Origin: a virus
DNA: 40,933 nt
Direction: 5' to 3' (one strand)
IMG/VR virus record: IMGVR_UViG_3300044655_002537
Span: 1-40,933 of that record
The notes beneath the pieces are model-generated. The model did not search any database, was not told where the DNA came from, and saw nothing but the letters and a program-made list of their open reading frames with translations. How positions within the stretch are numbered: the stretch's first letter is position 1; each line of letters opens with the position of its first letter. This document shows, in pieces, positions 3,611 to 36,363 of the stretch. Made by a program: the position numbers and the translations under genes.

Positions 3611-6600
3611 ATGTTTGACTCTGTTTTTTCTCCAAATCCTTCTGCAATATTCCGAGCCAAAACCCCCGACTACGTTAAACCCAAGTCGATAAAAATTAAT
3701 CTGGATAGATTAGAGAATGGCGGGGCTAATACTTTAACTGATGCTTTTAGTCGTGTGGTCTCCAAAGCATTAAAAGACTTAGACGGAGCAATTAAAACTA
3801 AAGACTCAAAGGCAATTGAAAACTATCAAGCTGTCTTAATTCCTGAGTTGACCAAATCAATTTACGGGATGTGGCTTGGGGGTTGGAACATCGGGCGGAA
3901 ACATGGGGATAATGAAATTAAGTCCCAACAGAAAAAGGGAACAAACACAGCCAACTTTGACGAGGATCTGCTAGACGCAGAATTAGCGTCTATAGAAAAT
4001 GTCCCCGCTCAAAACGCTATTGCCAACCGTTCCAAGACTCTGGCTTCTGATATTTCCTCGACTCAATGGGGGAAAATTAGAGGGCATATCCTATCAGCAA
4101 TTCAACCCCAATCCGAAACAGGGGAACCGATAAGCAGATCCGAACTTCTCAAGCGGATCAATTCGGAGTTAGGTGATAGAGGGTTTAAAAATCGCGCCGA
4201 GAAAATAGCCAGAACGGAGTTAACTTTTGCCTATAACGCAGGGAGATTACAGACTTATAAAGATTCTGGTTTAGTTTCCCATGTTGTATTCTTGTCAATC
4301 CTAGATGATCGCCGTTGTCAGGTCTGTGAAGGTCGTCACGGGATGATGATTGACCTAAACGATATAGAGACTGTTTCAGCGAATACACCGCCGATGCACG
4401 TCAATTGTCGCTGTGTATTGAGTCCGAGACTGGCAACTCCTGACAATCAACAGGAGCTAGACGATCAAACCCAAGATTCCAAAAAACGTCGATTATTTGA
4501 AGCTCCTCCTAAATGGTTGGCTGCGGGTATCTTAGCGGCGATTCTATTGTCACAGAAAAAGGTACGGGTTCCGGGGTCGGGTGTTGCCACCCCAGGAATT
4601 TCAATTCCTTCTCCAGTCAGGGAAGCTGTTGAACGGGGTTTGGTTGATGTTGCTTTAGCTGCACAGATTCAGAAGATAGCCAAGGCAACGGGTGAAGTCC
4701 AGACAGCAGAACAGATCCGTCAACGACGCAAAAATCAAACCGAATCATTGCCGGATCAAGGTGTGATTGAAATTCAACCTAGATTAGTTTTGAATGGGGT
4801 TGAGCTAAATAGTGCCACACCTGAACAAATTAGAGAGGGGTTAAAAGAGTTTTTACCCAAAAAACAATTAGATGATTTAATCAATTATTTACAAGAAAAC
4901 AAAATTAGTTCTATTGATGATTTGTTAGAGGTTAAAGGTATATCTCGTAAAAGTAAAGCATTTAAAATATTGCAGGGTTTAGCTGATAAAGATAAACTCA
5001 GGATTGAATTAGAAAAGCTAACCAGTCCCTCGGAATTGTGGTTAAAAAATTTAGGGTTTTCCCGCTCGGAATCCAAAGCAATTTTTGATGAATTAAAAAA
5101 TAAACCTTCTGAGTCATGGAGTGATCTTAAACGCCGACTTAAAAAGCGTGGTATTTCCGGTGACCGGATACAGAGAGCTATAGACAAACTCAAATCAATC
5201 GAGGCACAAGAGAAACGTCAAGTTGTGGGATTAGATAATTCCGTCCCAATGGTTCCTGATGTGACCCTAGATTCTCCAGAGATTGCAGTTGGTAAACTGA
5301 TTAAACAGAGAGAGATCGGGTTACAACGACGACGTGAAGCATTGCAAGAAATTAAGGATCTAGGAATTGAATTAGCTAAAATTAGATCCGATGAGAAAAG
5401 ATTTAACGTCCGTCTCCGTCGCATGAACAAACGGAATCCCAAGGAGTTCGTTTCACCCGAAGAAATTAGAATTAAAGAAATTAGATACGCTAGGGTTCAG
5501 GCAAAAATAGAACAAGCTCAAAAGAAAGCCAACGCCATCGGACTCCAACTTGAAAGAGCTAATTTGGCGCTTAATCAGTTAGATATCCCCAACCTCACCC
5601 CCGCTGCCAAACTACGGAACCAAGCCGTCCAAAACTTAGGAGACGAGGGTTCTACTCTGCTCGACGCTACCAATAGCTTAAAGGCTCAAATATCTAACGA
5701 GATAGACAGCCAAATGTCTAAAGGTTTTATCCCTCCTAACAAGAAAATAGCGGGGTTAGAACAAGCAAATAACCGGGCTAAGTTAATCACAGAACCCGTG
5801 TCTAATCTGATTGAAAAAACAAATTTAGAAGATTTACGATCTAAATTAACCGCACTCCAATCCCACTACCAAAACCTATTAGATCCTCTCTACCCAGAAA
5901 ACTTTTTCGGTCGTGATATTCAGAATGACTTAACCTCACTTCGTGCCGAATTAAAAAGAGTTAAGACCGAGATTGATGATGCTGTTAGCCTACTGAAAAG
6001 AACCGATCAAACCCTCACAGCTACAACTAATCAAACTGAGTCAATCTTAGGAAAAATGGGTTATCTAAAAACCGGAGCGCAACTAGAAAAGCAAGCCAAA
6101 GAACTTGAATCACAGATATTGAATTGGGAGAATAGAGTTAAGAAAACTAGAAACTATGAGCAAACTTATGAGCCATTTAGTCAAATAGAGAGACAGCAGC
6201 CACTAGATAAATTAATTCAAGATGCTACGGACATTAAAACTCAAATCCCTAAGTTCAAAAAGGAGCTAGAGAGTAGATTTAGACCCGGATTAAATAATGC
6301 TAAATCAACTATTTCCGATATTGCTATACAGACTAAAAAACTCGAACAATTACAGAAAGAAATTGACGGCATCCTAACTGATACCTCCAAACTTCCTATA
6401 ACCAAAGCCCAAATTCCTAGTTCGGATGTGGGAACGTATAACGCGACAGTAGAGCTTAGAAAAATATCCCGTGAAATTACAGAGGAAGTTAAACGGTTAA
6501 AGGCGTTAGCTGGTGCGAGCCGAGTTAACCTTGATGAATCTTTAAAGTCACAAAATAAAACCTATCAGCAATACGAAAAACAACGGTTTGGGGACGAGCA

Positions 6601-8044
6601 AACCCCATCCTGGGAGAAAAATCTATCCCCAATGGTTGAGTCAAGAATCACTCAAGTTGAGGATGCTGTTAAGAAGTTGGAAGCTATAGGTCAGGATTGG
6701 AATATAGGCTTCTTGGTTGATCTCGGTCAGAAGATTGACGATGGTGTTGATGCCACGGGAAAAGCTCTCAAGGTTAGGCGGTGGCTTGATGCTAACGGGC
6801 TTTCACCTGAAGATTTAACCTTATCACCAGGTACAGGCAGAAAGGTTGGTTATGAAGCCATTAGACAGTTGGCTGACGAAACCCTCAGACAGTACAACAT
6901 TGTCCAGTCCAATATTAGATCCATTAAAAAAGATACCCAGTTTAAAGTATTTACCGAGAATGGATTAATTGAGGAAGACAAGTTTTTAAAATGGGCAGAA
7001 GATCAAGCTGCATACTGGCAAAACCAAGTTAAAACATCAACATCCGATAATTGGCAGGGGTCAAGTTACGAGCGAGTTGATAAGCTCTGGAAATCTTTGG
7101 ATGGCAAAAAAGCCTCTGATGTTAAGGTCAGGGAATCTATCAAGCCCGATGATGTACAAGGTCAACTCAGAAAAACCATAGGTAAATATCAGGATTGGCA
7201 GCGTAAATACACGGTATTAAAGGAACAGGGGGAAGTAACGGGGAATGGAATTAGATCATTAAATGATGCTCAAAAGAAATTACTAAATGAGCAAAATATC
7301 CTATTAGAACAGCTTGATAGATATAACCTTGATAGCTCAAATCTAATTAGAGATAACGCAGATAACACCATGCAAATATGGGAGAAGGTCAGACAAGATG
7401 CTGGTAAACCCGTATTCTTTGACGTGAAAGGGAAAGCCATTGAGAGGGGGGAACTATTTAAACAATTAGATGAGATTGAGAATAAATTAAAACAATCTCT
7501 AAACATGAGAGAAATCAAGATAGAACCATTAACTTATCAAGCCGATAAAGCATCGTTAATGATTAAAGATCGGAATATCCTTAATCAAGCCTTGACTGAA
7601 TTAGAGCCTAAGATAACTGAAATTCAACAACAGATTCAACAGCTTGCTACGGCTGGGAAAGGAACTAAAAAACTAGAAACTCAACTGAATAAGTTGCAGC
7701 TAGAGAAACAAATTAAACAACAGCAGTTGGGCGAGGTTATTCAAGATATTAGAGACTTGAGATTACCGCCATTACAGAATGAGAAAATCCAAATCCTCAA
7801 GGGTCAAATAGGAGAAACCCAGAAACAATTGACGGGAATTAAATCCGAAATAGCAACACTGCGACGGGAGATAACGGCACTCAAGGAACAGCCATTGGAC
7901 GGGTCAGCATCGGGTATTAAACGTCAAAACAGACTCAATGCTTTGGAGGGTAGTATCACGCGGAAAAATCAAGATTTGTTTAAGGTTGTTGGGGTGTTAA
8001 ATAATCAGAGGGGAGAATTAGGAAAATTGAGAGGTGGGAGTTAA
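3611..8044 (+). CDS. Mu F-type head morphogenesis protein with giant coiled-coil extension
   Basis: Residues 185-275 form the Phage_Mu_F/SPP1 gp7 head morphogenesis domain: RAEKIARTELTFAYNAGR, a CQVCEGRHG motif near 236-244 and the closing PMHVNCRCVLSPR near 261-273. Usual family members have about 250-450 residues; this one has 1477. After the domain comes KKRR and a short hydrophobic stretch (WLAAGILAAILL, about 302-313), two helix-hairpin-helix-like segments (about 412-460 and 470-535), and about 900 residues of Lys/Glu/Gln-rich coiled coil. There is no visible frameshift or change in codon character, so it reads as one true protein. Family members are minor head proteins, a few copies near the portal, and some are injected with DNA. 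It follows the large terminase by 29 bases with a weak Shine-Dalgarno. The role of the extension is unknown. Confidence 0.85.
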   Translation: MFDSVFSPNPSAIFRAKTPDYVKPKSIKINLDRLENGGANTLTDAFSRVVSKALKDLDGAIKTKDSKAIENYQAVLIPELTKSIYGMWLGGWNIGRKHGDNEIKSQQKKGTNTANFDEDLLDAELASIENVPAQNAIANRSKTLASDISSTQWGKIRGHILSAIQPQSETGEPISRSELLKRINSELGDRGFKNRAEKIARTELTFAYNAGRLQTYKDSGLVSHVVFLSILDDRRCQVCEGRHGMMIDLNDIETVSANTPPMHVNCRCVLSPRLATPDNQQELDDQTQDSKKRRLFEAPPKWLAAGILAAILLSQKKVRVPGSGVATPGISIPSPVREAVERGLVDVALAAQIQKIAKATGEVQTAEQIRQRRKNQTESLPDQGVIEIQPRLVLNGVELNSATPEQIREGLKEFLPKKQLDDLINYLQENKISSIDDLLEVKGISRKSKAFKILQGLADKDKLRIELEKLTSPSELWLKNLGFSRSESKAIFDELKNKPSESWSDLKRRLKKRGISGDRIQRAIDKLKSIEAQEKRQVVGLDNSVPMVPDVTLDSPEIAVGKLIKQREIGLQRRREALQEIKDLGIELAKIRSDEKRFNVRLRRMNKRNPKEFVSPEEIRIKEIRYARVQAKIEQAQKKANAIGLQLERANLALNQLDIPNLTPAAKLRNQAVQNLGDEGSTLLDATNSLKAQISNEIDSQMSKGFIPPNKKIAGLEQANNRAKLITEPVSNLIEKTNLEDLRSKLTALQSHYQNLLDPLYPENFFGRDIQNDLTSLRAELKRVKTEIDDAVSLLKRTDQTLTATTNQTESILGKMGYLKTGAQLEKQAKELESQILNWENRVKKTRNYEQTYEPFSQIERQQPLDKLIQDATDIKTQIPKFKKELESRFRPGLNNAKSTISDIAIQTKKLEQLQKEIDGILTDTSKLPITKAQIPSSDVGTYNATVELRKISREITEEVKRLKALAGASRVNLDESLKSQNKTYQQYEKQRFGDEQTPSWEKNLSPMVESRITQVEDAVKKLEAIGQDWNIGFLVDLGQKIDDGVDATGKALKVRRWLDANGLSPEDLTLSPGTGRKVGYEAIRQLADETLRQYNIVQSNIRSIKKDTQFKVFTENGLIEEDKFLKWAEDQAAYWQNQVKTSTSDNWQGSSYERVDKLWKSLDGKKASDVKVRESIKPDDVQGQLRKTIGKYQDWQRKYTVLKEQGEVTGNGIRSLNDAQKKLLNEQNILLEQLDRYNLDSSNLIRDNADNTMQIWEKVRQDAGKPVFFDVKGKAIERGELFKQLDEIENKLKQSLNMREIKIEPLTYQADKASLMIKDRNILNQALTELEPKITEIQQQIQQLATAGKGTKKLETQLNKLQLEKQIKQQQLGEVIQDIRDLRLPPLQNEKIQILKGQIGETQKQLTGIKSEIATLRREITALKEQPLDGSASGIKRQNRLNALEGSITRKNQDLFKVVGVLNNQRGELGKLRGGS

Positions 8045-15383: not shown

Positions 15384-15926
15384 TTAATTCCAATTACCAG
15401 CTAAAAACAATTCCTGTTCCTCAATCAGTCTTATATCCTGTCTATCCTCAAGTAACCAGTCGATAGTTGCAGCGTAGGCTTTGTAGAATTTATCGCGCTT
15501 TTCCTCTAAGGTTAGTTGTTCCTGTCCGAAAGCTAATCTAAACCAATCCTCAATCCCTACGTCTAACAGAGCATCTAGTAAAGCCTCAGCTTGTGGTTTA
15601 CCTCTCTTTGCAGCTAATCTAATCAATTGCCGAAAATCTTTTAAGCTGATAGTTTCTGAGATTGTAGTCCCTCTAGCTGATCCAGTGACTTCTACAGGGG
15701 ATGCGACCCCAGTAAATCCCCACTGTGTAAGGGTTTCAGCGTCTTTACCTTTGCCCGATGCGACCCCGTTTATAGTCCGAGTTACCCAATCTTTTCCATA
15801 CCCCAATGCCAACGCGGTTGAAAGTTTCCCAACTCGAAACTCGCCATCGGGTAACAGGTATCCGTCAACTTCGACACCCTCACAAAATTTAACTGTAGAA
15901 CGTTCGGCTCTGGTAATATTATCCAT
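15384..15926 (-). CDS. Uncharacterised cyanobacterial-type protein, 180 residues
   Basis: It opens with a segment around VEVDGYLLPDGEFRVGKLST, continues with GKDWVTRTIN, and has a C-terminal half with ISLKDFRQLIRLAAKRGKPQ, LLDVGIEDWFRLAFG and LTLEEKRDKFYKAYAATIDW. From memory this layout resembles short uncharacterised proteins scattered through cyanobacterial genomes and mobile DNA; no function is known to me. A role in DNA binding or regulation is possible from the SLKDF-type helical region, which recalls BRO/KilA-N companions, but this is speculative. An AGGAA 10 bases upstream of ATG supports the start. It sits alone between a convergent tail gene and the tape measure, ahead of which lies a hairpin. 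Confidence 0.65.
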   Translation of the reverse strand: MDNITRAERSTVKFCEGVEVDGYLLPDGEFRVGKLSTALALGYGKDWVTRTINGVASGKGKDAETLTQWGFTGVASPVEVTGSARGTTISETISLKDFRQLIRLAAKRGKPQAEALLDALLDVGIEDWFRLAFGQEQLTLEEKRDKFYKAYAATIDWLLEDRQDIRLIEEQELFLAGNWN

Positions 15927-26051: not shown

Positions 26052-26498
26052 TTAAGCCTCTAAATAATCAATTCCAGTAAAACTAAAACGCAAGAAAGCA
26101 TAGACGGGTTGAGACAGTTCATTAACCATGATCCTGTACTCGGATCTAAAACTTCCTTGTGTTATAATTGGGGGACAGTTCTTAGACTCTTTCCACTGAG
26201 TCAAAGCCTCGTTAAGTTGCCAACTAACCCACCTCAAGATTCCTGGCAGAACCTCTTGATCTGGGAAGGAAAGGCAATAGGAAATAACAAAGCTGGTTTG
26301 TGATTTGGGATGACCATACTCAAAGTTATCTGACAACCGATAAACTTTGAGTAGCGGAAATCTTGATAGGTCAGGGTTGACAGCATCATAACAAACCGTA
26401 TCCCGACACGCGATCAGATTGGGGTCAATCTTTTTCAGTTCAGAATTTAACCACTCTTGTAAATATTTAGCTAATCCATTGCATACAGGATCAAGCAT
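26052..26498 (-). CDS. Tail terminator/tail completion protein
   Basis: 148 residues with a helical N-terminus (CNGLAKYLQEWLNSELKKID), a strand with FPLLKVYRLSDN and a C-terminal beta part ending FLRFSFTGIDYLEA. The layout of a leading helix, then beta sandwich, and its place directly before the tube gene match siphovirus tail terminators (lambda gpU-like), which cap the finished tube and mate it to the head. The ATG at 26498 has a GGGGGA six bases upstream and overlaps the end of the ParB-like gene by 8 bases. No motif proves the family. Confidence 0.65.
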   Translation of the reverse strand: MLDPVCNGLAKYLQEWLNSELKKIDPNLIACRDTVCYDAVNPDLSRFPLLKVYRLSDNFEYGHPKSQTSFVISYCLSFPDQEVLPGILRWVSWQLNEALTQWKESKNCPPIITQGSFRSEYRIMVNELSQPVYAFLRFSFTGIDYLEA

Positions 26499-28194
26499 AT
26501 TTATTCCCCCTTCTTTTCAGTCTAGGGGTTTGTTTTGTTTTCCTGCGTTTTAATGGTTTGGAGGCATCACAACAGCATCCGTGTTTAGCAAAGTTAGCTA
26601 GTCTCAGGTTAGCGGATGCTGTAAATAATTCTAAGTTGCCCGCCTTTTTAGCCTTCTCAAGTTGCTTTCGTTTTTCGTCTTGAATGGCTTTTTCTTCTCG
26701 GTCAATTGCTGATAATCCCTCACTTCGTTTAGGACTTGCTCCTTTTCCGAAGCGGTAAGTTTTTTGTAATTCATCTAATACCTGTTCGTAAGTTTCCTTA
26801 ATAATTTTATCCTGCCCTCTTTGATTAAGCGACAATCTCTCGGCAGCCGTATTGAGATAGTCAGAGACTTTACCCGTTAGCATCTTCTCTTGATCAAATG
26901 CTCCTAAAGCTCTTTCTGCCATTTCTGCTATCTCATTGGATTCGTCAATATTAATCTTATTGCCAGCCCTCTCTAAATCCTGAGCAGCTTTTGATTTGCC
27001 AACGGTAGAGAATAGTCGTTTATCCCTGGATAATTGCCGTTTAATAGCTGATTGAATTTGAGCTTTTTCAACAGCTAGGGATCGGGTTTCGGGTGTGAAT
27101 CCTAATAAGTCTAATAAACCCCCTTGAGACTCGGTTTTTGTTGGGGTATTTTTAATCATATCCCCTAGTTCTTCTATGGTGTCATTGTTGATTTTCTTCC
27201 CTCGTTTTTCTTCCTTCTCAACTAAGTCTAAAAGGTCTTGCTGTTGACGGTGATCCTTGATTTTAGCCCCAATAGTAACAGCCCTTTGTTCAGGGAGTTG
27301 ACCCTGTACAACACGGTTAAATAATGAATCACTTAGACTTGCTAATGCCAGCCCATCCTCAGCTATTTTCTCCCGCATCGGTACGCCTTTCTTCTCTAAT
27401 TCCTGTTTAGTTACACCGGAATCTCTAAAGAATTTAGCCGCGTCTTGGGCGTTACCTCGACCTTCAGCAATGTTAGTTAACGCACCAATAGCACGGGCTT
27501 CCTGGGGTGTTTTAGCGTCAATTAGCTTAACCGTTACAGAGGGAGCATTTAGCTTTTTAGCCAATGCCAAGCGGTTATGACCATTGACAACATTAACCTC
27601 TCCATTTCGAGGATCTCTCCAAACTTGTAAAATCCCTCCTAAGTTGGCATCCCATTTCTTGACCCCTGATAAACTGCCAACTTCACCGGATTTGGTTTGT
27701 TCACCGATGATTTTATATTGGAATCGTTTGGGGTCTACTTTAATTTTATTCGGGTCAGCTTCAGCAATACCAGACGGGAGAATGGCTTTAGCTCCCATCT
27801 GTTTAGCTGCGCTGTTTAATTCCTTAGCACGGCGTTTATTCTCTATTTTTCCCTGTAATCTATTAACATCCTGAACTAATTGCTGTTCAGTTTCGGTTAA
27901 TTCTTGACCTGTTTTTGATTTATTAAAAGCCTCTTTTCTGGCTTGAGTATAATCTTTAAACTTTAAAGGTTTATCAAGTTTGGCTCCGGTTTTGGGATGG
28001 GTGTAACAGTTCTTAGAACTAGGAATAAATACACCTTTATTGCCGCAAGGATAGGATGCAAAGTTGGCAGTCTGTTTGGTTTTACGCCGTCTCAAGTTGT
28101 TACCTCCAAATTGAGCGAGTGAAGGATAAAATCTCTCCATCCAATTTGGAATATATTTAACAAGATTGGGAAACAGAGTTGGGAAATCAATCAT
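26491..28194 (-). CDS. ParB-like domain protein within the virion gene cluster
   Basis: 567 residues. Residues about 140-350 contain a ParB/DdrB-like nuclease-fold domain: KVDPKRFQYKI, then GEVNVVNGHNRLALAKKLNA (GHNRL box near 205-209) and helical DNA-binding-like sequence (GRGNAQDAAKFFRDSG). The N-terminus bears LRRRKTKQTANFASY (about 34-48) and the C-terminus KRRKTKQT, then LKRRGNKYA: a basic tag appears twice. Four cysteines at the end (HGCCCDASK, plus CGN earlier) are notable. It lies between the unknown gene at 28211 and the tail terminator, so it is expressed with virion proteins and may be packaged. A GAGGA precedes its ATG. Function unknown; a virion-borne DNA-processing or ejected protein is possible. 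Confidence 0.75.
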   Translation of the reverse strand: MIDFPTLFPNLVKYIPNWMERFYPSLAQFGGNNLRRRKTKQTANFASYPCGNKGVFIPSSKNCYTHPKTGAKLDKPLKFKDYTQARKEAFNKSKTGQELTETEQQLVQDVNRLQGKIENKRRAKELNSAAKQMGAKAILPSGIAEADPNKIKVDPKRFQYKIIGEQTKSGEVGSLSGVKKWDANLGGILQVWRDPRNGEVNVVNGHNRLALAKKLNAPSVTVKLIDAKTPQEARAIGALTNIAEGRGNAQDAAKFFRDSGVTKQELEKKGVPMREKIAEDGLALASLSDSLFNRVVQGQLPEQRAVTIGAKIKDHRQQQDLLDLVEKEEKRGKKINNDTIEELGDMIKNTPTKTESQGGLLDLLGFTPETRSLAVEKAQIQSAIKRQLSRDKRLFSTVGKSKAAQDLERAGNKINIDESNEIAEMAERALGAFDQEKMLTGKVSDYLNTAAERLSLNQRGQDKIIKETYEQVLDELQKTYRFGKGASPKRSEGLSAIDREEKAIQDEKRKQLEKAKKAGNLELFTASANLRLANFAKHGCCCDASKPLKRRKTKQTPRLKRRGNKYA

Positions 28195-28619: not shown

Positions 28620-29177
28620 TTAACTCCAGTTAATTTTATCGGCTGGGCAGGGATTTTTCTGGGTAACAATTGTGGTTTGTCGGGTGTACGTTCCGGGAGC
28701 CAAAACCTTTAACTTAACGCCGGGTAATTTCAGGGTTTGGGTTGGCATCATCGGATTAGCCATCGGCGGAGGCAAGCCCGGAATATTAAAATCTAGCTGA
28801 TAACCCGCCACATACTGTCTAAGGGTATACAAAGCATTCCGGTAAAGAATAGCCCCGAAACCCATGTCTCCCCCCATTTGCGGGTTTTGCATTTGCTGAA
28901 AATGCACAACCGCAAGGGAAGCAACCGTCAAATCCTCAACAATAGAACTAACAATCTGTAAGGCATCACGGGCGTTTGAAGGTATAGGCAACTCGTAAAC
29001 AAAGCTCAGGATTGAATTGACCTGAGCTTCAATTTGAGTGCCTTTTTGATCCAACAATTCCAGGTCAACTTCCTTAGCCCCGAAGCTAGATCCAAAAGGA
29101 ACCCCCGACGCATTTGTACCGAGTTCAAGCCTCCCTCTTAATATTCGAGCTATCCGGTCAGGAGTTGTGTAAATCAT
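28620..29177 (-). CDS. Head-tail adaptor (connector) protein
   Basis: 185 residues. The N-terminal MIYTTPDRIARILRGRLELG and the helical core EAQVNSILSFVYELPIPSNA with a following bundle resemble the DUF1320/gp6-type head-tail connector family, which forms a ring under the portal. A Pro-Met-rich stretch (PGLPPPMANPMMP) leads to a strand-rich C-terminus. The ATGA overlap with the upstream HhH gene implies coupled translation. In Mu-like phages the equivalent gene also follows the capsid gene, which supports the call. Confidence 0.65.
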   Translation of the reverse strand: MIYTTPDRIARILRGRLELGTNASGVPFGSSFGAKEVDLELLDQKGTQIEAQVNSILSFVYELPIPSNARDALQIVSSIVEDLTVASLAVVHFQQMQNPQMGGDMGFGAILYRNALYTLRQYVAGYQLDFNIPGLPPPMANPMMPTQTLKLPGVKLKVLAPGTYTRQTTIVTQKNPCPADKINWS

Positions 29178-29641
29178 TGGATCACAATAGATTCTTTCAA
29201 TTCATCCCAAGACTTACCTCTAAGGGGGATTCTGGTATCCAAATCCTCAACAGAGGTAAAAGGTTGTTGATCCCGTGCTTTGTCAAGTTTGGTAGCGATC
29301 GCAGCACCAACACCCGGCAATTTAGAAAGCTCGTCAATTGTGGCTTTATTAACATCTGTTTTGGGTAAGACAGCACCAATAACAACGGTTTCAGTGGGGT
29401 AGGTTTTCGGAATTGTATTCGGAGCCTCCACAGAGAAGGAGATGCTATTCTCAACTTTGACATCTGAATTATTGATGGTTGGAGTTAGCACGGGTTCTTT
29501 CACTTCATCCTGTTGGATGATGTCAAGCCGTGCTAACACTTCCTCTGGCAATTCTCCAGGGTTGTAGATTCGAGGGTGATAGATATTCCCACGATTAACC
29601 GCCATTTTGAGAAGTTTTACCGGTCTAGTGATGTCGATCAT
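29174..29641 (-). CDS. Helix-hairpin-helix protein of the head connector region
   Basis: 155 residues. Residues about 96-135 form a ComEA-like helix-hairpin-helix: TDVNKATIDELSKLPGVGAA then IATKLDKARDQQPFTSVEDL. The first 80 residues (NIYHPRIYNPGELPEEVLAR) resemble short head-fibre or decoration-like domains. HhH motifs bind the DNA backbone without sequence preference, so this protein may touch DNA at the head-tail vertex. It starts in an ATGA overlap with the capsid gene stop, and its own stop overlaps the next start by four bases. An internal ATG at 29605 is a possible alternative start. Function in the virion is inferred. Confidence 0.7.
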   Translation of the reverse strand: MIDITRPVKLLKMAVNRGNIYHPRIYNPGELPEEVLARLDIIQQDEVKEPVLTPTINNSDVKVENSISFSVEAPNTIPKTYPTETVVIGAVLPKTDVNKATIDELSKLPGVGAAIATKLDKARDQQPFTSVEDLDTRIPLRGKSWDELKESIVIQ

Positions 29642-30765
29642 GCGACTGTCCGACCTCCTAATAAGTCAGGTTGGGGGAAGAAGGGAACCATCTTTCCTAC
29701 ACAATAAGAGCGGTCACGGGCTGGGGATGTTTGTAATTGTTCGGTTTTGACAAACAGACCGGATCTCCCTTCATTTTCAATTGTGGGGCCGAACAATCGC
29801 TTACCCATGCCAGAGGTTAGGAAACAGTAAGAGTTATCGTTCAGATAACGCCCTTTCACTGTTTGACCGGGTGATGTTTCGATCTCGTATTGGGCATCGT
29901 AAATCTCTAATTGAGTTTTGGACATTGCCAACTGAGGTACGAGTTTCATCAAAATCTCAGGAGAAACGGCACTAGCCACCCCCGCAGCAGGGACATTAGA
30001 CAGCATCCCAGTAGAGAGTGCCCTGTTGCGGGTCGATTCTTGGCGACTTAAATGGATCGCCAAACGATTGCTCATCACAATCTTGTCAGGGTAATATCCC
30101 TTCTTATCGTAGAAATTGAGCAAATGATCCTCAATATCTTGCAATCCCGTGGCTGTAGCGTACTGATCCCATCGGGCGGTTCCAGTTAAAGCGGTAGGGT
30201 ACTGATCGGCTGTAGTGGCATAAGCTAATCTGGCAGTTACACCGGAGCGGGGGTCGGTATAGGAGACTTGACCAGACTGTAATACTTGCCAAGTCAGAAC
30301 GTTTGCAAGTTTGACAACTCTAGGCTGTAGACTGGCAACGGAACCAAACAGCATATCCACAAAAGTTTGCGACATATTGCCGGGCATCATCCGTTTAAAT
30401 TTCAACATTTGCTCTTGTTTCTTTTCGTCCCAGTTATGGGCGATCGCCAGTTTAAAGAAATCCCCATCAAACTTAATCAAGCTCCCCGCACCCGTTGAGA
30501 CAACCTCACCATCAGTGGAAATCACAGAAGCGATTGCTAGGTTTTGCTTCACAAGATAAGCCAAAACATCAGGGTCGTCGGAAAACTCAAGGGTGACAAA
30601 ATCATCCATCAGTTTGTATTGACTAAGAACACCGGGGTCGGGCTTTTTGCCCATCCGTTGCAGGAGGGATTCTTTATCAGGGTCAACCAGGAATTGAAAA
30701 GTATCTTCATACAAAAGTTGAACTTGTGCAGCCGATACAGTATTTAAGAAATCTGCAATGTACAT
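29638..30765 (-). CDS. Major capsid protein (lambda gpE/Phage_cap_E type)
   Basis: 375 residues. It has the features of gpE-like HK97-fold capsid proteins: an N-terminal helix (MYIADFLNTVSAAQVQLLYE), an extended arm with KRMMPGNMSQTFVDMLFGSV, a central region giving YYPDKIVMSNRLAIHLS, and a C-terminal end (FFPQPDLLGGRTVA). There is no long N-terminal scaffolding domain, in line with a separate scaffold gene. The start is set by GGAGGG nine bases upstream. It follows the decoration gene, as in lambda (D then E). A HIP1 site lies at 30440-30447. This should be the most abundant virion protein. Confidence 0.85.
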   Translation of the reverse strand: MYIADFLNTVSAAQVQLLYEDTFQFLVDPDKESLLQRMGKKPDPGVLSQYKLMDDFVTLEFSDDPDVLAYLVKQNLAIASVISTDGEVVSTGAGSLIKFDGDFFKLAIAHNWDEKKQEQMLKFKRMMPGNMSQTFVDMLFGSVASLQPRVVKLANVLTWQVLQSGQVSYTDPRSGVTARLAYATTADQYPTALTGTARWDQYATATGLQDIEDHLLNFYDKKGYYPDKIVMSNRLAIHLSRQESTRNRALSTGMLSNVPAAGVASAVSPEILMKLVPQLAMSKTQLEIYDAQYEIETSPGQTVKGRYLNDNSYCFLTSGMGKRLFGPTIENEGRSGLFVKTEQLQTSPARDRSYCVGKMVPFFPQPDLLGGRTVA

Positions 30766-30781: not shown

Positions 30782-31693
30782 TTAAGGAATAAAGGTTAGT
30801 TTTGGCAGTTGGGTTTGAATGTCACCGTCAATGTATGGCAGCGCATTACGGAAGACGACACCACCTGAGTACGGAGCGATAAACTGATCACCGTCATAGA
30901 GGGAGACAGTGGCATTTAAAACCCCTACAACAACATCCCCAATCGTACCGATCTTGGCTCCAATTGCCAGAGACGCATTACCACCTTGGGGGGTAATGGT
31001 TAGGGTTCCGATTGCCGTAGAAACATCAGCAACCGCAGTTCCCAAAGTGCCAGCAACACCCTGAGCTACCGTTACAGCCGTTGTGAAAATGATACCTTCT
31101 TGATCGGTAGTGAGAGTTAGAACACCGCCCGGAGTAGTCGCGCGGATTTCTTCTAAGGGAGAAGACCCAGATTGTGCTTTGGTGATAGCAGCCTTTAGAC
31201 CATCAGCAACATTCTGGCTTGATGCAGCCGTAGCTGTGTAAGAAATGGGAACGCCGTTAATAGAAACAGTAAAAATATTGCCAACAGCAACCGAGGCAAA
31301 TGTGACGGTCGTAACCTGTCTTTGATTCAAGGAATCAATACCCGTCACCGTCCCAAATATCGGAGCTGTAGCTGCACGAATAGCGGCTTCTTCTGTGTAC
31401 CGTGTAGCCCCTGGTGCAGCGATATAACGCAGTACATCCCCGATTTTAAAGACTTGAGGGCATTCTACAATCACAACCGTTTCACCAGAAACATAGGGAG
31501 CAAGAATTTTGGATCTACCCAATGGGCGATGACCGCCCGTAGATTTCTTGGCGAGAAAAACACCAGCAGGAACCGATTTAGATCCTGCAACAGATGGGAT
31601 ATCCGACTCCTCTAAGCAGCAAGAAAACGCGGCTTCGGTATTAGTATTTACCGCGATAATTGGAGGGTCTGAATAAAAACGGGTTACTTTCAT
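30782..31693 (-). CDS. Head decoration protein with inserted beta domain
   Basis: 303 residues. The opening MKVTRFYSDPPIIAVNTN and GVFLAKKSTGGHRPL, with YVSGETVVIVECPQVFKIGD, look like a capsid-decoration or gpD-like protein, and the C-terminal part (GDVVVGVLNATVSLYDGDQF) continues it. Inserted between about 115 and 265 is a repeat-like domain with VGNIFTVSINGVPISYTATA and GGVLTLTTDQEGIIFTTAVT, a type often seen displayed on capsid or tube proteins. The gene is directly before the capsid gene and has a clean AAGGAG. The trimeric or surface location is inferred from family and order. Confidence 0.7.
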   Translation of the reverse strand: MKVTRFYSDPPIIAVNTNTEAAFSCCLEESDIPSVAGSKSVPAGVFLAKKSTGGHRPLGRSKILAPYVSGETVVIVECPQVFKIGDVLRYIAAPGATRYTEEAAIRAATAPIFGTVTGIDSLNQRQVTTVTFASVAVGNIFTVSINGVPISYTATAASSQNVADGLKAAITKAQSGSSPLEEIRATTPGGVLTLTTDQEGIIFTTAVTVAQGVAGTLGTAVADVSTAIGTLTITPQGGNASLAIGAKIGTIGDVVVGVLNATVSLYDGDQFIAPYSGGVVFRNALPYIDGDIQTQLPKLTFIP

Positions 31694-31702
31694 TTTTTCT
31701 CC

Positions 31703-32677
31703 TTAAACATATCCATTACGGGTGCGGAATGACTGAATAGATTGCACATCTTCATGGGAGAAGTTGGTATCAATCGGGTCATTAGCCATTTGTCCAAATA
31801 TTGCCATTGATGGGCGATTAGAAGCCCAATATAAGCAATATTGAATTCGGTCTAATTGTTGACCAATGGGAACATCTAACTGAGCGCAAGCCTGGGAAAA
31901 ACTGGCAACTCTGTCTTGACCTGTCTCGAAGTCACCAATCAAAAACCGACGATCTGCCGTTGTGATTTGTCCACTGGAAACGAGTTGATCACATTGGCGT
32001 TCTAAGGCTCTCAGGGTTTCACCAATGGCTTGCTGTTCCTTGAGTGCCTCAAATTCGGCACGGAGTCCGATGTCAGCGCTCATGGTGGCAACGGGTTCAG
32101 CATAGATGCCTTCACTCAGGGAGTAGGAGTCATCGGGAGATCCCCCTAACTCAGTAAAAGCATTCGCAGCTAGATTAATGAAATCGTTGTAATCTTGACC
32201 GCCTAACTGAAAAGCGTCTGCTAATTCGGCGGCGGTTTCGGGTTCGATTGCCAGCGTCCCATCAAACAGGCTAGAAATATCTCGCCCGTCTAATCCGGTG
32301 ATTTCAGAGACAACAGCAACACCATCATTAACATTATCAAATCTTTGTTCAATCAAACCAGCTAAAGCCTGACCAAACCCTTGAGAAAATGAAGCCATAA
32401 CCCCCATATTTTGGGAGTATTCTTCCATTTCTTCCTCATCTTCCATTCGAGATTCTTCTACATCAATACCAAAAATTTGATAAAGAGTAGAGGCAAAATC
32501 TTCAATTCCTTCAGCAATTACATCATCCATTTCTTCTTCGCCCAAAACTTCCCCATCCTCTTGATCAAGGGCGGTTTGAGCTAATTCAAGAAATGCCGAA
32601 AAGGTTTCTGTTGAGTCGTGAACTTCCTCGAAAGTTGTTGACTCTAAGATTGCCTGAATTTGACTGAGTGAATCCAT
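31703..32677 (-). CDS. Acidic helical protein, scaffold candidate
   Basis: 324 residues, strongly acidic in the first half (EDEEEMEEYSQN) and largely helical, with no catalytic motif. Position between the prohead protease group and decoration/capsid genes, together with composition, fits a scaffolding protein that is removed by the protease during maturation. Two short segments, VMASFSQ and RVASFSQ, match part of the ASF motif seen in neighbouring proteins and may be processing sites. It ends RTRNGYV. A TAGGAG precedes the ATG. No sequence family is recognised, so the scaffold call is positional. Confidence 0.55.
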   Translation of the reverse strand: MDSLSQIQAILESTTFEEVHDSTETFSAFLELAQTALDQEDGEVLGEEEMDDVIAEGIEDFASTLYQIFGIDVEESRMEDEEEMEEYSQNMGVMASFSQGFGQALAGLIEQRFDNVNDGVAVVSEITGLDGRDISSLFDGTLAIEPETAAELADAFQLGGQDYNDFINLAANAFTELGGSPDDSYSLSEGIYAEPVATMSADIGLRAEFEALKEQQAIGETLRALERQCDQLVSSGQITTADRRFLIGDFETGQDRVASFSQACAQLDVPIGQQLDRIQYCLYWASNRPSMAIFGQMANDPIDTNFSHEDVQSIQSFRTRNGYV

Positions 32678-32971
32678 CTATTTTCTCCTAACATTTTCAA
32701 CTACTGTTTTACCATTTTTAGTTCTCCTTCGACGGGAAAACACCTTTCCTCCGTAATACCCCGCAGCGACGGCGGGGCTTGTAGCCATAAGTACGCCTTG
32801 AGCCAAAGGATTCTTTTTCATAAAATCTCTTTGTTTATGCCTAAACTCTTTATTGCGAGCATTTAGAGCATACCAAGTCCCATAACCCGCACCACCAACA
32901 GCCGCGGCGAGGGTTAAGGCATTAAAAGAAGCCTGTTGTTTATGTCTAATCACCCTCCGAATAACGATCAT
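32678..32971 (-). CDS. Small arginine-tailed head-region protein (copy A)
   Basis: 97 residues. The N-terminus MIVIRRVIRHKQQASF is almost the same as that of the next gene upstream. A Gly/Ala-rich hydrophobic segment (TLAAAVGGAGYGTWYAL) and a second one (ATSPAVAAGYYGGKV) follow, then the C-terminal tag FSRRRRTKNGKTVVENVRRK. Basic ends with small-residue helices suggest a DNA-binding or membrane-active minor virion protein. The ATG overlaps the preceding stop as ATGA. No known family. It is a member of a three-gene set with related tails. Confidence 0.65.
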   Translation of the reverse strand: MIVIRRVIRHKQQASFNALTLAAAVGGAGYGTWYALNARNKEFRHKQRDFMKKNPLAQGVLMATSPAVAAGYYGGKVFSRRRRTKNGKTVVENVRRK

Positions 32972-33261
32972 CTTCTAACGACCTCTGTAACGACTTTGCC
33001 GTTTTTGGTTCGCCTAGTTCGGGTATAAGCTACTTTCCCTGATCGGCGTTTCATCTTATTAGCTGTTGGCTGCATTATGGAAGCAAGAATATTGGGATCT
33101 CGGATATTTTTACCTTGGGATTTAGCTCTATCTAAATCTTTTTGTAGTGATTTCCGAGCATATTCCGCTTCTCTATTTACCTCACTAATTCGATTAAAAG
33201 GGTTAGGGAAACCAAATGAAGCTTGTTGTTTTGATCTGACAACCCTCCGAACAATAATCAT
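32968..33261 (-). CDS. Small arginine-tailed head-region protein (copy B)
   Basis: 97 residues, MIIVRRVVRSKQQASF at the N-terminus and RTRRTKNGKVVTEVVRR at the C-terminus, with a polar charged middle (NREAEYARKSLQKDLDRAKS) where copy A is hydrophobic. So both ends are shared with copy A while the centres differ, as expected if the ends are tags and the centres carry function. The start overlaps the upstream stop by one base (TAATG). No named family. Probable cargo or minor head component, by inference. Confidence 0.65.
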   Translation of the reverse strand: MIIVRRVVRSKQQASFGFPNPFNRISEVNREAEYARKSLQKDLDRAKSQGKNIRDPNILASIMQPTANKMKRRSGKVAYTRTRRTKNGKVVTEVVRR

Positions 33262-33755
33262 TAGCGTCTCACTTGTTCAACAATCATTTTTCCAGTTTTA
33301 CTACGACGACGACGGAGGAAGTAAGCGCCAGCACCACCTACAGCCAACAAAGCACCTGCTCTTCCTGGGTTGGCTTTGATTAAGTCTGCTGCGCTATTCA
33401 TCAATTCCCCACCTTTTCGCGCACCGAAACGAAGTCCACGCTCTGCGTAACCACCTAAGCCCCTGGCTCCTGATTTAGCCATACCATAACCACCAATAGC
33501 ACCGCTTCTAGCTGTCCCATAAAAATCGTTTTTACCAACCCCAAGAACAGCATTTTTAGCCCGTCTCATGTCTCTTATTGCTTGATGCACTTTCTTGGGC
33601 GCGGCGGGAGCCACTCTTTGCTGAGGCTGTGCTGCTCCACCCATCCCATAAGGCATTGCAAACAAAGCCATTCCCGTTCCTTCATACCGATTATATTTGT
33701 CAACTTCCGCCATTGAAAACATAGCTACAGGCGGTTCGTATTGGTAAAAATTCAT
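33261..33755 (-). CDS. Gly/Arg-rich small protein with hydrophobic segment and arginine tail
   Basis: 164 residues. It starts MNFYQYEPPVAMFSMAEVDK, has a Gly-rich centre (SGARGLGGYAERGLRFGARK) and a hydrophobic run AGALLAVGGAGAYFL straight before the tail FLRRRRSKTGKMIVEQVRR. The tail matches those of the two downstream genes, but the KQQASF N-terminal box is missing. AAGGAG precedes ATG. The product lies just after the protease gene and might be a membrane-spanning ejection protein or a capsid-lumen protein. Not recognised as a known family. Confidence 0.65.
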   Translation of the reverse strand: MNFYQYEPPVAMFSMAEVDKYNRYEGTGMALFAMPYGMGGAAQPQQRVAPAAPKKVHQAIRDMRRAKNAVLGVGKNDFYGTARSGAIGGYGMAKSGARGLGGYAERGLRFGARKGGELMNSAADLIKANPGRAGALLAVGGAGAYFLRRRRSKTGKMIVEQVRR

Positions 33756-33793
33756 TTTTGTCTCCTTAAATACTTAGTGTGAAAATAACAAAA

Positions 33794-34684
33794 TTATCGG
33801 TTCTTTTTCCGTCGTCTTAACCCCGTATCACTAAAATTAGAAGTAGTGTTACTCAGGGAATAAGTGGCTTGCTGTTTAACTAATTCGTTGGCATAAGGGC
33901 TTGAATCATACGGAAGTTCAGGCTCTTGATTCGTTGATTGACTCAGATTATCAAGCCCAAAATATTGCTTAATTTCTGCCGTAAATTCGTCAATCGCAGT
34001 CGATAACAATTGCCCAGGACTAACAGCGATCAATTGTTCTGGAGATGCTTTTTGAATCCGTTGGATGGTTTGTAATAGGATTTCAAACTCCTCCAGTAGA
34101 TCCTCTTTCTGTCGCTTAAACGTTCCCTGTTCCTCTTTGACCGAAGCAAAACTCAAGTCTTGAACAGTAGAAGACGCAGCGAAAAGCGCGGGGCCGTGGA
34201 TGGCTGGGAAGGCAACGGCGGATACTTCTGCTAATCTTTCAAGTTTTAAATCAACACCCGGACTTAAAAGATTAATTAGTTTCGACTGAACTTCGTTAAC
34301 CTTATTAAGAATTTTAGCCTTGGAAAATGCACCAAGTTTTCCGATTAAGTGTTGCATTTTTGGGTTGGGCAAATCCTCTTGGCGGATAACCCGACACTCG
34401 AAAGGACTAACAAAAATCCCAAGTTTCTTGAGTTCACCGTCCGCCCCGATCAATTGCTTGCTATGATCGGACATGAGTGGAATTTCATAACCTTGAGACA
34501 TTGCCGCGTTTGTCCTTTGTGCAATTCTCAAGATTCTCTCAGAGGGAAATTCATGCACAACCCCTTGGTTGTCTTTATGGGTTCCCTCAATCAAAACCAG
34601 AGCGTTTTTAATCAGCTCTCCGGTGGCATTATCCTCAGAAAACTGACACAATCCACCTATAGCGTCAAAGCAAGAAACACCCAT
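33794..34684 (-). CDS. Prohead protease
   Basis: 296 residues. Family features of the HK97/S78-type serine protease: an early strand with NALVLIEGTHKDN, the catalytic-His candidate in EIPLMSDHSKQ (about residues 68-78), and the Ser candidate in LAEVSAVAFPAIHG (about 152-165). A helical C-terminal region ends in VKQQATYSLSN and the basic LRRRKKNR, motifs shared with the small neighbours, suggesting self-processing. The protein would cleave the scaffold and capsid-associated proteins during head maturation. It is the first gene of the minus-strand operon, facing the XRE gene across 16 bases. No Shine-Dalgarno is seen before its ATG. Confidence 0.75.
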   Translation of the reverse strand: MGVSCFDAIGGLCQFSEDNATGELIKNALVLIEGTHKDNQGVVHEFPSERILRIAQRTNAAMSQGYEIPLMSDHSKQLIGADGELKKLGIFVSPFECRVIRQEDLPNPKMQHLIGKLGAFSKAKILNKVNEVQSKLINLLSPGVDLKLERLAEVSAVAFPAIHGPALFAASSTVQDLSFASVKEEQGTFKRQKEDLLEEFEILLQTIQRIQKASPEQLIAVSPGQLLSTAIDEFTAEIKQYFGLDNLSQSTNQEPELPYDSSPYANELVKQQATYSLSNTTSNFSDTGLRRRKKNR

Positions 34685-34700: not shown

Positions 34701-34985
34701 ATGGGTCAATTACAATACTATTCTGTTAACTCAAATTCTAGTAAAAAGTATCCCAATTCAGGATATTTAGACAGCATCGGATTAAGGTTAAAGAAACTAA
34801 GGGAAGATAGGAATATGACTCAGCTTGAACTGGGGGAGTTACTTAACTACAGGCAACATTCTATAAGCAGAAAAGAATCCGGTGTATCACAAATATCAAG
34901 TATTGAGGTGGTCAATATTTCCAGGGTTTTAAGTTTAACCACGTCTGAATTAATTTATTTATTATTGGGGGTCGATAATGGTTGA
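34701..34985 (+). CDS. XRE-family helix-turn-helix regulator
   Basis: 94 residues. The segment from about 26 to 85 is a Cro/C1-type HTH: IGLRLKKLREDRNMTQLELG, with RQHSISRKESGVSQISSIEV forming turn and recognition helix. AAGGGG six bases ahead of the ATG gives the start. Its stop overlaps the portal start by 8 bases (ATG at 34978), so regulator and portal share an mRNA. A regulator co-transcribed with the portal and divergent from the protease operon is a natural switch for the head genes, but its target site is not seen; the 16-base gap leaves no room for an ordinary promoter outside coding sequence. Confidence 0.85.
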   Translation: MGQLQYYSVNSNSSKKYPNSGYLDSIGLRLKKLREDRNMTQLELGELLNYRQHSISRKESGVSQISSIEVVNISRVLSLTTSELIYLLLGVDNG

Positions 34986-36363
34986 AAAATTAAGTTACCT
35001 TCCGGGTCAAATATCACCCAGTCTTGATAATTTAATCTGGGATTTTGTCTCTAGTTTGGACACTAGGGGAAAATACCCAATTAAAGATTTAGCTGCAATG
35101 CTCAAAGCTGATCCAATATCGGGCGCGGCTTTGACTGTTAAGGCATCAAGAGCAATCGCGTTAACCGGAATGTTTAAGCATGGCAATAATGAGGTTGCTA
35201 GTTTTCCCTCTGGCAAATTTACTCCAGTTGAATTTATTAATTCCTGTTGGGAGTTGATGGATGGATCGCTGTCTGATGTGATCCTTCAGATGTCTAAACA
35301 AGCTTATGGCTTGGGTCGGAGCGTTGCTGAGATTGTGTTTAGTACGGAGATGGAGGGACACAAGGGAGAATTAAGGATTAAACGATTCAATATTTTAGAG
35401 CCTAGTCGGATTAAGTTTGCAGGGAAATCCGGTCAGATAGATCGGATAATTTATTCGTCAAGCAAGGGGGAGGTCGGGATTCCTTATTCTAAATGTTTGC
35501 ACATCTCAAATACCCCAATTGACAGCAACGATCCAAACGGCGACCCACAATCCGCGGCAGCCTATCCTTTTTGGGAATTTCATAAGTTGTTGATGCGGGA
35601 ATGGTCTGTAGCTTGTCAACGGCAAGCGACAGGATTGACCATCGTACAGGTTCCGTCAACTGAACCGATCCCTATGATGGACGCGAACGGCAAGCCCATT
35701 CTTGATGAATATGGACAAACCAAAAACACATCGGCATTAGCTCAGGCTTTAGATCAATTAAAAGATTTAGCCAACGGGTCGATTGTTGGAACTGACAAAA
35801 ACAACACCATCACCACGATTCCACAAACCGGAGGAGAAGGGTTTTTTAATTTAACTTCTGAGAAATTAGATAAATATAGGTGGTTGGCTTATGGAATCCC
35901 CTATACAATCTTTAATGAAGGCACTGCTACACTCGGACAGGCTGGCTTGAACTCAGGGCATAGATTGATTTTAGATGGCTTAATTGAGGAAATAGCTAGG
36001 CAGTTTAGGGATAGATTAATTAATAATGTTTGTCGCCCTTTATTGATGTGGAATTTTGGAATACAAGATAATTATGGAACATTTGAATCAGAACAATTCT
36101 TAGATCCCGCACAGTCGGGAATGCGAGTTTCTAATATTATGACCTGTATTCAAACTGGATTATTTAATCCCACTGATTTAGAGGCGTTAAATCAACTCAG
36201 GAAAGATTTAGGATTAAGTCAAAGAAGACAGGAGGATTTCAACCAAGAATTAATCGAAAAAATTATGGCAGCAGAACAGCAAAAACAAGCGCAAGCACAA
36301 GCTGAATCGGCAACAGCGGAAAAAACAGAGGAGAAAACAGAGGAGGATAACCCGTATTTATAA
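34978..36363 (+). CDS. Portal protein (Mu gp29-like, DUF935)
   Basis: 461 residues, near the usual size. Features of the DUF935 family are GAALTVKASRAIALTGMF, the FWEFHKLLMREWSVACQRQA segment and, near residue 290-330, EKLDKYRWLAYGIPYTIFNE, with a C-terminal Gln/Glu-rich tail (QQKQAQAQAE, EEKTEEDNPYL). Twelve copies would form the ring where DNA enters and leaves the head and bind the terminase. It lies over 30 kb from the terminase in this window and on the plus strand, unlike the typical terminase-portal pairing. The stop overlaps the convergent gene's stop by six bases. Confidence 0.85.
   Translation: MVEKLSYLPGQISPSLDNLIWDFVSSLDTRGKYPIKDLAAMLKADPISGAALTVKASRAIALTGMFKHGNNEVASFPSGKFTPVEFINSCWELMDGSLSDVILQMSKQAYGLGRSVAEIVFSTEMEGHKGELRIKRFNILEPSRIKFAGKSGQIDRIIYSSSKGEVGIPYSKCLHISNTPIDSNDPNGDPQSAAAYPFWEFHKLLMREWSVACQRQATGLTIVQVPSTEPIPMMDANGKPILDEYGQTKNTSALAQALDQLKDLANGSIVGTDKNNTITTIPQTGGEGFFNLTSEKLDKYRWLAYGIPYTIFNEGTATLGQAGLNSGHRLILDGLIEEIARQFRDRLINNVCRPLLMWNFGIQDNYGTFESEQFLDPAQSGMRVSNIMTCIQTGLFNPTDLEALNQLRKDLGLSQRRQEDFNQELIEKIMAAEQQKQAQAQAESATAEKTEEKTEEDNPYL

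Follow-up and report, generated by a model that had tools for sequence, protein, structure and literature searches.

A putative T4-like capsid-cargo targeting system with candidate A-x-F protease sites in the head module of a viral contig related to Pseudanabaena phages

In phage T4, capsid-targeting propeptides of 10-19 residues that are shared between different proteins are removed by the protease gp21, which cuts after L/I-x-E (PMC9026906). The T4 scaffold is cut many times, gp21 itself is processed at its C-terminus, and Alt is processed at both ends (PMC9026906). The prohead protease gp245 of SPN3US cuts after AxE, and the head of this phage is filled with ejected proteins, several of which carry propeptides (PMC10052503). 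In phage P1, the Dar proteins (DarA, DarB, and DdrB) are packaged in the head, partly processed, and protective of the incoming DNA, with a capsid targeting sequence in DarB and a ParB-like domain in DdrB (PMC9024508, PMC5512222). The MuF polymorphic toxins of temperate phages combine a constant virion-linked part with an exchangeable effector part (PMC5576092). A preliminary description of the viral DNA analysed here had pointed to arginine-rich tails and KQQASF-like boxes in proteins encoded next to a prohead protease gene, and stated that its author knew of no described family with this pairing. The scheme does have precedents in the T4 propeptides (PMC9026906) and SPN3US gp245 (PMC10052503).

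The window, i.e., the whole stretch that was analysed, is a viral contig of 40,933 bases, and the sequence strings reported earlier were checked in its translated minus-strand open reading frames. The gene order on this strand is protease, three small basic proteins, an acidic candidate scaffold, a 303-aa head protein, and the major capsid protein. The latter (375 aa, 29638..30765, minus strand) matched phrog_29 (E=1.6e-17), and the 303-aa head protein between scaffold and capsid protein (30782..31693, minus strand) matched phrog_909 (E=2e-4). The plus strand carries the large terminase (1896-3581), a MuF-domain protein of 1477 aa (3611..8044; PF04233, E=7e-14), and a Mu-type portal protein (34978..36363; PF06074, E=1.5e-15). 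The MuF protein contains TANF/DEDL at 3950-3958 (here and below, a slash marks the predicted cut), which may be a chance occurrence because there are few A-x-F motifs across its 1477 residues; a weak ComEA match was also found in this protein. A helix-hairpin-helix-like stretch (LPGVGAAIATKL) is present in a head-module protein encoded beside the capsid gene (window 29174-29641; L024 15354-15878), a protein that is apparently retained in PA-SR01. The comparison covered 22 IMG/VR loci of close relatives with 94-100% identical capsid proteins, a single IMG/VR locus, L038, with a 49% identical capsid protein, and a distant group (26-31%) to which the Pseudanabaena phage isolates PA-SR01 and Pam2 belong; the capsid proteins of these two share 27% identity with that of the window. 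A search of cellular genomes gave a single 27-residue match. The open reading frame at 15384-15926 has an N-terminal half very similar to that of ORF068 of the Planktothrix phage PaV-LD (N.TRAERSTVKFCEGVEVDGY.LPDGEFRVGK; L100 18768-19304), a likeness that suggests gene exchange with this phage and a possible host link.

The putative prohead protease (296 aa, 33794..34684, minus strand) is helical in its C-terminal part and ends in a basic tail, and residues 15-77 weakly matched phrog_976 (E=5e-5). Its homologues in L038 (39% identity) and PA-SR01 (32%) matched this family too, so that the E-values in the three lineages were 5e-5, 4e-5, and 4e-3, and for the PA-SR01 homologue an HHpred match to PF10123 has been reported (PMC10286775). 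H44, D73-H74, and S155 (in E[VIL]S[AL]V..PAI) were invariant in 13 protease sequences, and within the close group the protease is ~94% identical or more. An hmmscan of the protease against Pfam gave no match, an NCBIfam search found none for protease, scaffold or cassettes, and a sequence search against solved structures returned noise only. Profile comparison with single Mu I and single T4 gp21 sequences also gave nothing, a comparison that has little power with single sequences. The predicted structure had no usable fold (pLDDT 36), and the candidate catalytic residues could not be placed in it. We consider the protein a putative head maturation protease of the Mu I-like type. The KQQATYSL and LRRRKKNR strings noted before are both present in its C-terminal region; the KQQATY box (33860..33877, minus strand) reads KGQATY in relatives and is not conserved beyond the close group. 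Two other positions are candidate cleavage sites. ALF/AASS follows the protease domain (34181..34189, minus strand) and has near-equivalents in L038 (AQF/S) and PA-SR01 (ANF/A). SNF/SDTG (33833..33841, minus strand) lies ahead of the LRRRKKNR tail and is a candidate C-terminal autocleavage site, with the equivalents SDF/G, ADF/G (L038), AQF/N (PA-SR01), and ALF/N (L079); in every case a basic tail comes next. The protease C-termini of relatives at 32-39% identity all finish with [AS]xF plus a basic tail.

The three consecutive small genes behind the protease, here called cassettes, lie on the minus strand and encode proteins with net charges of +17, +18, and +18. Cassette a (164 aa, 33261..33755) has YEPPVAMF/SMAEV and GMALF/AMPY in its N-terminal region, followed by a Gly/Ala-rich segment, and ends in RRRRSKTGKMIVEQVRR; relatives keep these ends around a replaced core. 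Cassette h2 (97 aa, 32968..33261) starts with the tag MIIVRRVVRSKQQASF/GF, with its A-S-F site at 33214..33222 (minus strand), and ends in RTRRTKNGKVVTEVVRR. Its counterpart in relatives, cassette h, shares 55% identity with it, has A-Q-F at the equivalent place, and comes from genomes with a protease 94% identical to that of the window. Cassette i2 (97 aa, 32678..32971) has the tag MIVIRRVIRHKQQASF/NA, the A-S-F site at 32924..32932 (minus strand), the tail RRRRTKNGKTVVENVRRK, and ~52% identity to cassette i of relatives. Both the Arg/Lys-rich tails of the three proteins and the nearly identical starts of two of them (MI[IV][VI]RRV..KQQASF) were thus present as described. The last cassette (i) is frameshifted in three separate contigs (L016:6810-6983, L020:3736-3909, and L008 at about 1225-1504), and its tail half is intact in another frame.

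Cassettes are arranged head-to-tail with overlapping stop and start codons. In close relatives, the interval between protease and scaffold contains 3-11 of them. There are 16 types overall in the window and its relatives, and their order is conserved with presence or absence of individual types. Most types start with MII[VI]RR and nearly all with MI[IV].R[RK]; the exceptions are cassettes a and n, which nevertheless carry A-x-F and the common tail. For most types A-x-F is located 12-21 residues into the protein, followed by a core unrelated to that of other types. [AT]-x-F was found at residues 9-26 in 16/16 types compared to 1.28 expected from shuffling, hence this recurrence is not due to chance. 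The tails resemble RRRRTKNGKIVVEQVRR. Between close relatives the cores are swapped and the ends constant, so that cargo content differs from phage to phage. The suggested search of viral contigs with the tail motif retrieved contigs of the window group and no others; in phage records, relatives of the cassettes outside the group were limited to weak endolysin matches to one cassette (E 0.1-0.2), and small-cassette relatives sought in L038 and L049 were not found. In the window group, L038, and PA-SR01/Pam2, the protease-scaffold interval does contain small or basic Gly-rich proteins. In PA-SR01 (L024 6683-10168) and its equivalents in L025, L077, and L078, the interior proteins at this place contain repeated IRKSANF-type boxes, several per protein, together with Gly zippers (G...G as top pair), as if several cargo units had been fused in one chain.

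The head-to-tail layout with overlapping codons would fit shared ends that have no function and were left behind when cassettes duplicated in tandem and underwent gene conversion. The tails of paralogues with unrelated cores share 66% protein identity, while the codons at same-residue positions are 47% identical compared to 36% expected at saturation. The tails are therefore old and under selection at the protein level, which rules out recent duplication or gene conversion, and because paralogues of this age keep their ends only under selection, we regard the leftover explanation as highly improbable.

The preliminary description proposed that the arginine-rich tails target DNA or the scaffold. 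In most cassette types, a hydrophobic Gly/Ala stretch ends ~17-25 residues before the C-terminus and is followed by RRRR, so the tail of the small proteins may instead be the flank of a membrane anchor. No clear A-x-F was found ahead of these C-terminal tails, which may act as a further targeting signal or else anchor the protein in a membrane. The small proteins could then be tail-anchored membrane proteins, involved in exclusion, lysis or host effects, that are never packaged and whose genes ended up in a head operon by chance. This would account for the hydrophobic segment ~20 residues from the C-terminus and the RRRR behind it, and weak matches to a cell-wall-anchor profile in two cassettes point in the same direction. 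Against it, type h/h2 has the same ends without any hydrophobic segment, A-x-F is common to the small proteins, the scaffold, the protease, and the large cargo protein described below, and the protease-scaffold interval contains small or basic Gly-rich proteins in all three lineages. We therefore find it quite unlikely that these proteins stay out of the capsid.

The window also encodes a large tagged cargo candidate of 567 aa (26491..28194, minus strand) with a net charge of +35, conserved N- and C-termini, the latter basic, and a swappable core, which is ParB-like here. Both LRRRKTKQTANF and KRRKTKQT, reported previously for this protein, were confirmed. Near the N-terminus is an A-Q-F site (28108..28116), which is AQF or AEF in all relatives, followed by a second site, KQTANF/ASY, after LRRRKTK (28060..28068; KTKIANF/ASY in L013), and at the other end LANF/AKHG precedes the basic tail (26590..26598; ANF, AQF or AKF in relatives), all three on the minus strand. 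In the comparison with L006, L009, L016, and L020, similarity is confined to the first ~95-146 and the last ~37-80 residues and the centre differs; compared to L015 and L018, where the gene is ended by the contig edge, only the N-terminus is common. The core of the window protein (residues 130-459) has its homologue within a giant protein (2563 aa) from the Prochlorococcus podophage P-SCSP1g, which is encoded downstream of the tail tube gene in a region of large genes. The L015 core (residues 108-579) is homologous to part of gp60 of Pseudomonas phage H66 (3787 aa), whose annotation states that mass spectrometry verified it in the virion. PaV-LD ORF061, a protein without A-x-F flanks, shares 50% identity with a third core (L009). 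From a cargo system one would expect such a slot, with constant A-x-F-bounded ends and room for domains of virion proteins. Encoded beside the cargo homologues in PaV-LD are two small proteins, ORF062 and ORF066 (L100 13817-14398 and 18001-18513), which may be ADP-ribosyltransferases judging by their YRGL and ASWTS patterns.

The candidate scaffold (324 aa, 31703..32677, minus strand), encoded with the cargo array on one side and the capsid genes on the other, is strongly acidic (net charge -50, pI 4.05) and had no family match above noise. Four potential sites were found in it, all on the minus strand. VMASF/SQGFGQ (32387..32395) retains ASF in all close relatives and is VSF/SAGFGQ in L038. 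LRAEF/EAL (32051..32059) is LRAEF/AAL in L038 and LRAEK in PA-SR01. At position 258, RVASF/SQAC (31898..31906) is replaced by AQF in L006/L016 and in PA-SR01, and by AAF in L038. At position 292, MAIF/GQMA (31796..31804) is AQF in L006/L016 and ALF in L038.

The cleavage box was originally defined as KQ(Q/T)A(S/T/N)(F/Y). In this form the definition is ruled out: A-x-F does recur, but the preceding KQ varies in relatives, as in KGQATY (protease), KTKIANF (ParB-like protein), and HRNQLASF, SPSLAQF, and SKSSANF (cassettes). Ahead of the box the sequence differs between relatives, but A and F persist, so that A-x-F with a free x is the constant element, and the next residue is usually S, A, G or N. 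In the window genes alone, the enrichment of A-polar-F is modest (11 compared to 5.2 expected, sd 2.3), and the strong signal stems from the relatives. In the PA-SR01 head module we counted 24 instances versus 7.0 expected (sd 2.6), compared to 76 versus 64 in the rest of the genome, and control motifs such as A.E, A.L, V.F, and A..F showed no excess in this module. In the PA-type relatives, the conservation of A and F in sites did not significantly exceed that of the remaining A and F of these proteins (p=0.32 and 0.19), whereas F was significantly more conserved than x within sites (p=0.012). The idea that the boxes are protease sites and the basic ends capsid-cargo tags agreed with all sequence tests but this comparison of A and F.

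In an unbiased scan, we also ranked every ordered pair of residues with a spacing of 1-4. With T4 gp67, gp68, gp21, and gp22 as input, I.E ranked first and L.E second, which is the known gp21 motif; [LI].E occurred 55 times versus 29 expected in T4 head proteins, with no excess in two T4 tail proteins, and A.F was not enriched in the T4 proteins counted. In 21 interior proteins of the window group, A.F ranked first (53 compared to 22 expected). Since this set contains related tags, the pooled score overstates independence, and the two separate lineages, PA-SR01 alone and the window plus L038 alone, in each of which A.F ranked third, are safer evidence than the pooled scan.

Enrichment cannot separate binding from cutting, and the recurrence of A-x-F in many interior proteins, known from sequence, would also be expected from a docking motif for the scaffold, the capsid wall or a protease exosite that is never cut, with tags that recruit cargo and stay on. 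Short Phe-centred docking peptides occur in other assembly systems. What makes us consider docking unlikely is that the P3-x-P1 form fits the mapped prohead proteases of T4 (LxE, PMC9026906) and SPN3US (AxE, PMC10052503), that the same pair scan recovered the true T4 cleavage motif, and that the sites lie between tag and body and directly ahead of the basic tail of the protease.

Taken together, the reading that we prefer, with a probability of roughly two in three, is a T4-like cargo system that combines capsid targeting with a prohead protease of A-x-F specificity and has an expanded cassette array; cleavage, packaging, and ejection are steps that we infer. In such a system, cargo would be targeted by short, mostly basic tags, which the small cassettes have at their N-terminus and the large cargo at either end. 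Basic cargo would co-assemble with the strongly acidic scaffold within the prohead, and electrostatic core assembly would be the simplest reading of the charges (scaffold -50, cargo positive). The neighbouring head maturation protease would then cut after A-x-F, between cargo tag and body, and the same enzyme would cut the scaffold at several places and itself after the protease domain and before the basic tail. With the tags removed and the scaffold in fragments, the cargo would be free inside the DNA-filled head and could be ejected later. The Gly/Ala-rich hydrophobic segment with RRRR in many small cargos suggests membrane insertion upon ejection, and the cores of the cassettes and of the large protein would be exchanged between phages like the T4 internal proteins. 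The tag and site scheme extends to relatives that are only about 27-30% identical in capsid protein and protease. The virion proteins of one of these, PA-SR01, have been analysed by SDS-PAGE only, with mass spectrometry stated as still needed (PMC10286775).

The resemblance to T4 IPI-III and Alt lies in a short N-terminal propeptide common to basic cargo proteins that otherwise differ, and in cargo that varies between related phages (PMC9026906, PMC3012670). As in T4, a P3-x-P1 motif ends the propeptide, the scaffold has multiple sites, and the protease has a C-terminal site, all predicted here, and the large cargo has sites at both ends, which are cut in Alt and predicted here. Unlike T4, the motif is A-x-F instead of L/I-x-E, the protease is Mu-I-like by the available matches instead of gp21-type, up to 11 tandem cassettes lie beside the protease, and the window group combines a strongly basic tag with a further common tail, which stands at the C-terminus behind a hydrophobic segment. 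We do not assign the system to the T4 family by descent, because the enriched pair is A.F and not x.E, and a gp21 profile match was absent in a comparison of little power. With SPN3US gp245 it has in common a short motif with Ala at P3 and a free P2; P1 is Glu there and Phe here, and the accessible text describes no tagged tandem cargo array (PMC10052503). DdrB of P1 can be likened to the window core by description only, and the consulted parts of the P1 reports describe neither a shared tag family nor a cassette array for the Dar proteins. The cores in the tagged slot are homologous to polyvalent, giant virion-associated proteins (H66 gp60, gene 25 of Prochlorococcus phage P-SCSP1); unlike these, where domains are strung in one polypeptide, they are single domains with candidate removable tags, and the 567-aa protein of the window has one recognisable core, not several effector domains. 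The exchange of effector parts against a constant virion-linked part is reminiscent of the MuF toxins (PMC5576092), with the difference that the constant part is a two-ended tag here and a MuF domain there, and that the MuF protein of the window is a separate gene.

It is possible, if doubtful, that the locus goes further and represents an expandable payload locus served by a Phe-P1 protease, in which capsid entry is open to any protein that acquires a basic A-x-F tag and the C-terminal hydrophobic/RRRR-TKNGK tag provides routing to the host membrane upon ejection. Were this so, interchangeable, individually tagged effectors would replace one giant ejection protein. The preferred T4-like reading would, for its part, bring T4-style capsid-targeting logic to freshwater cyanophages with another protease specificity. 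Phages would then carry a swappable payload locus of up to 11 tagged genes that is injected into hosts, and a basic tag plus A-x-F would be a short portable rule for spotting injected proteins by sequence.

Finally, the residue-pair scan might make it possible to read prohead-protease specificities directly from genomes. In PaV-LD (L100, HQ683709), R-x-D was the top pair in the protease/scaffold-like head protein ORF071 (47352-48875), with 15 occurrences compared to 4.1 expected, and another prohead protease may use it as its cleavage motif. RLDA is also found near the N-terminus of the PaV-LD capsid protein ORF073.
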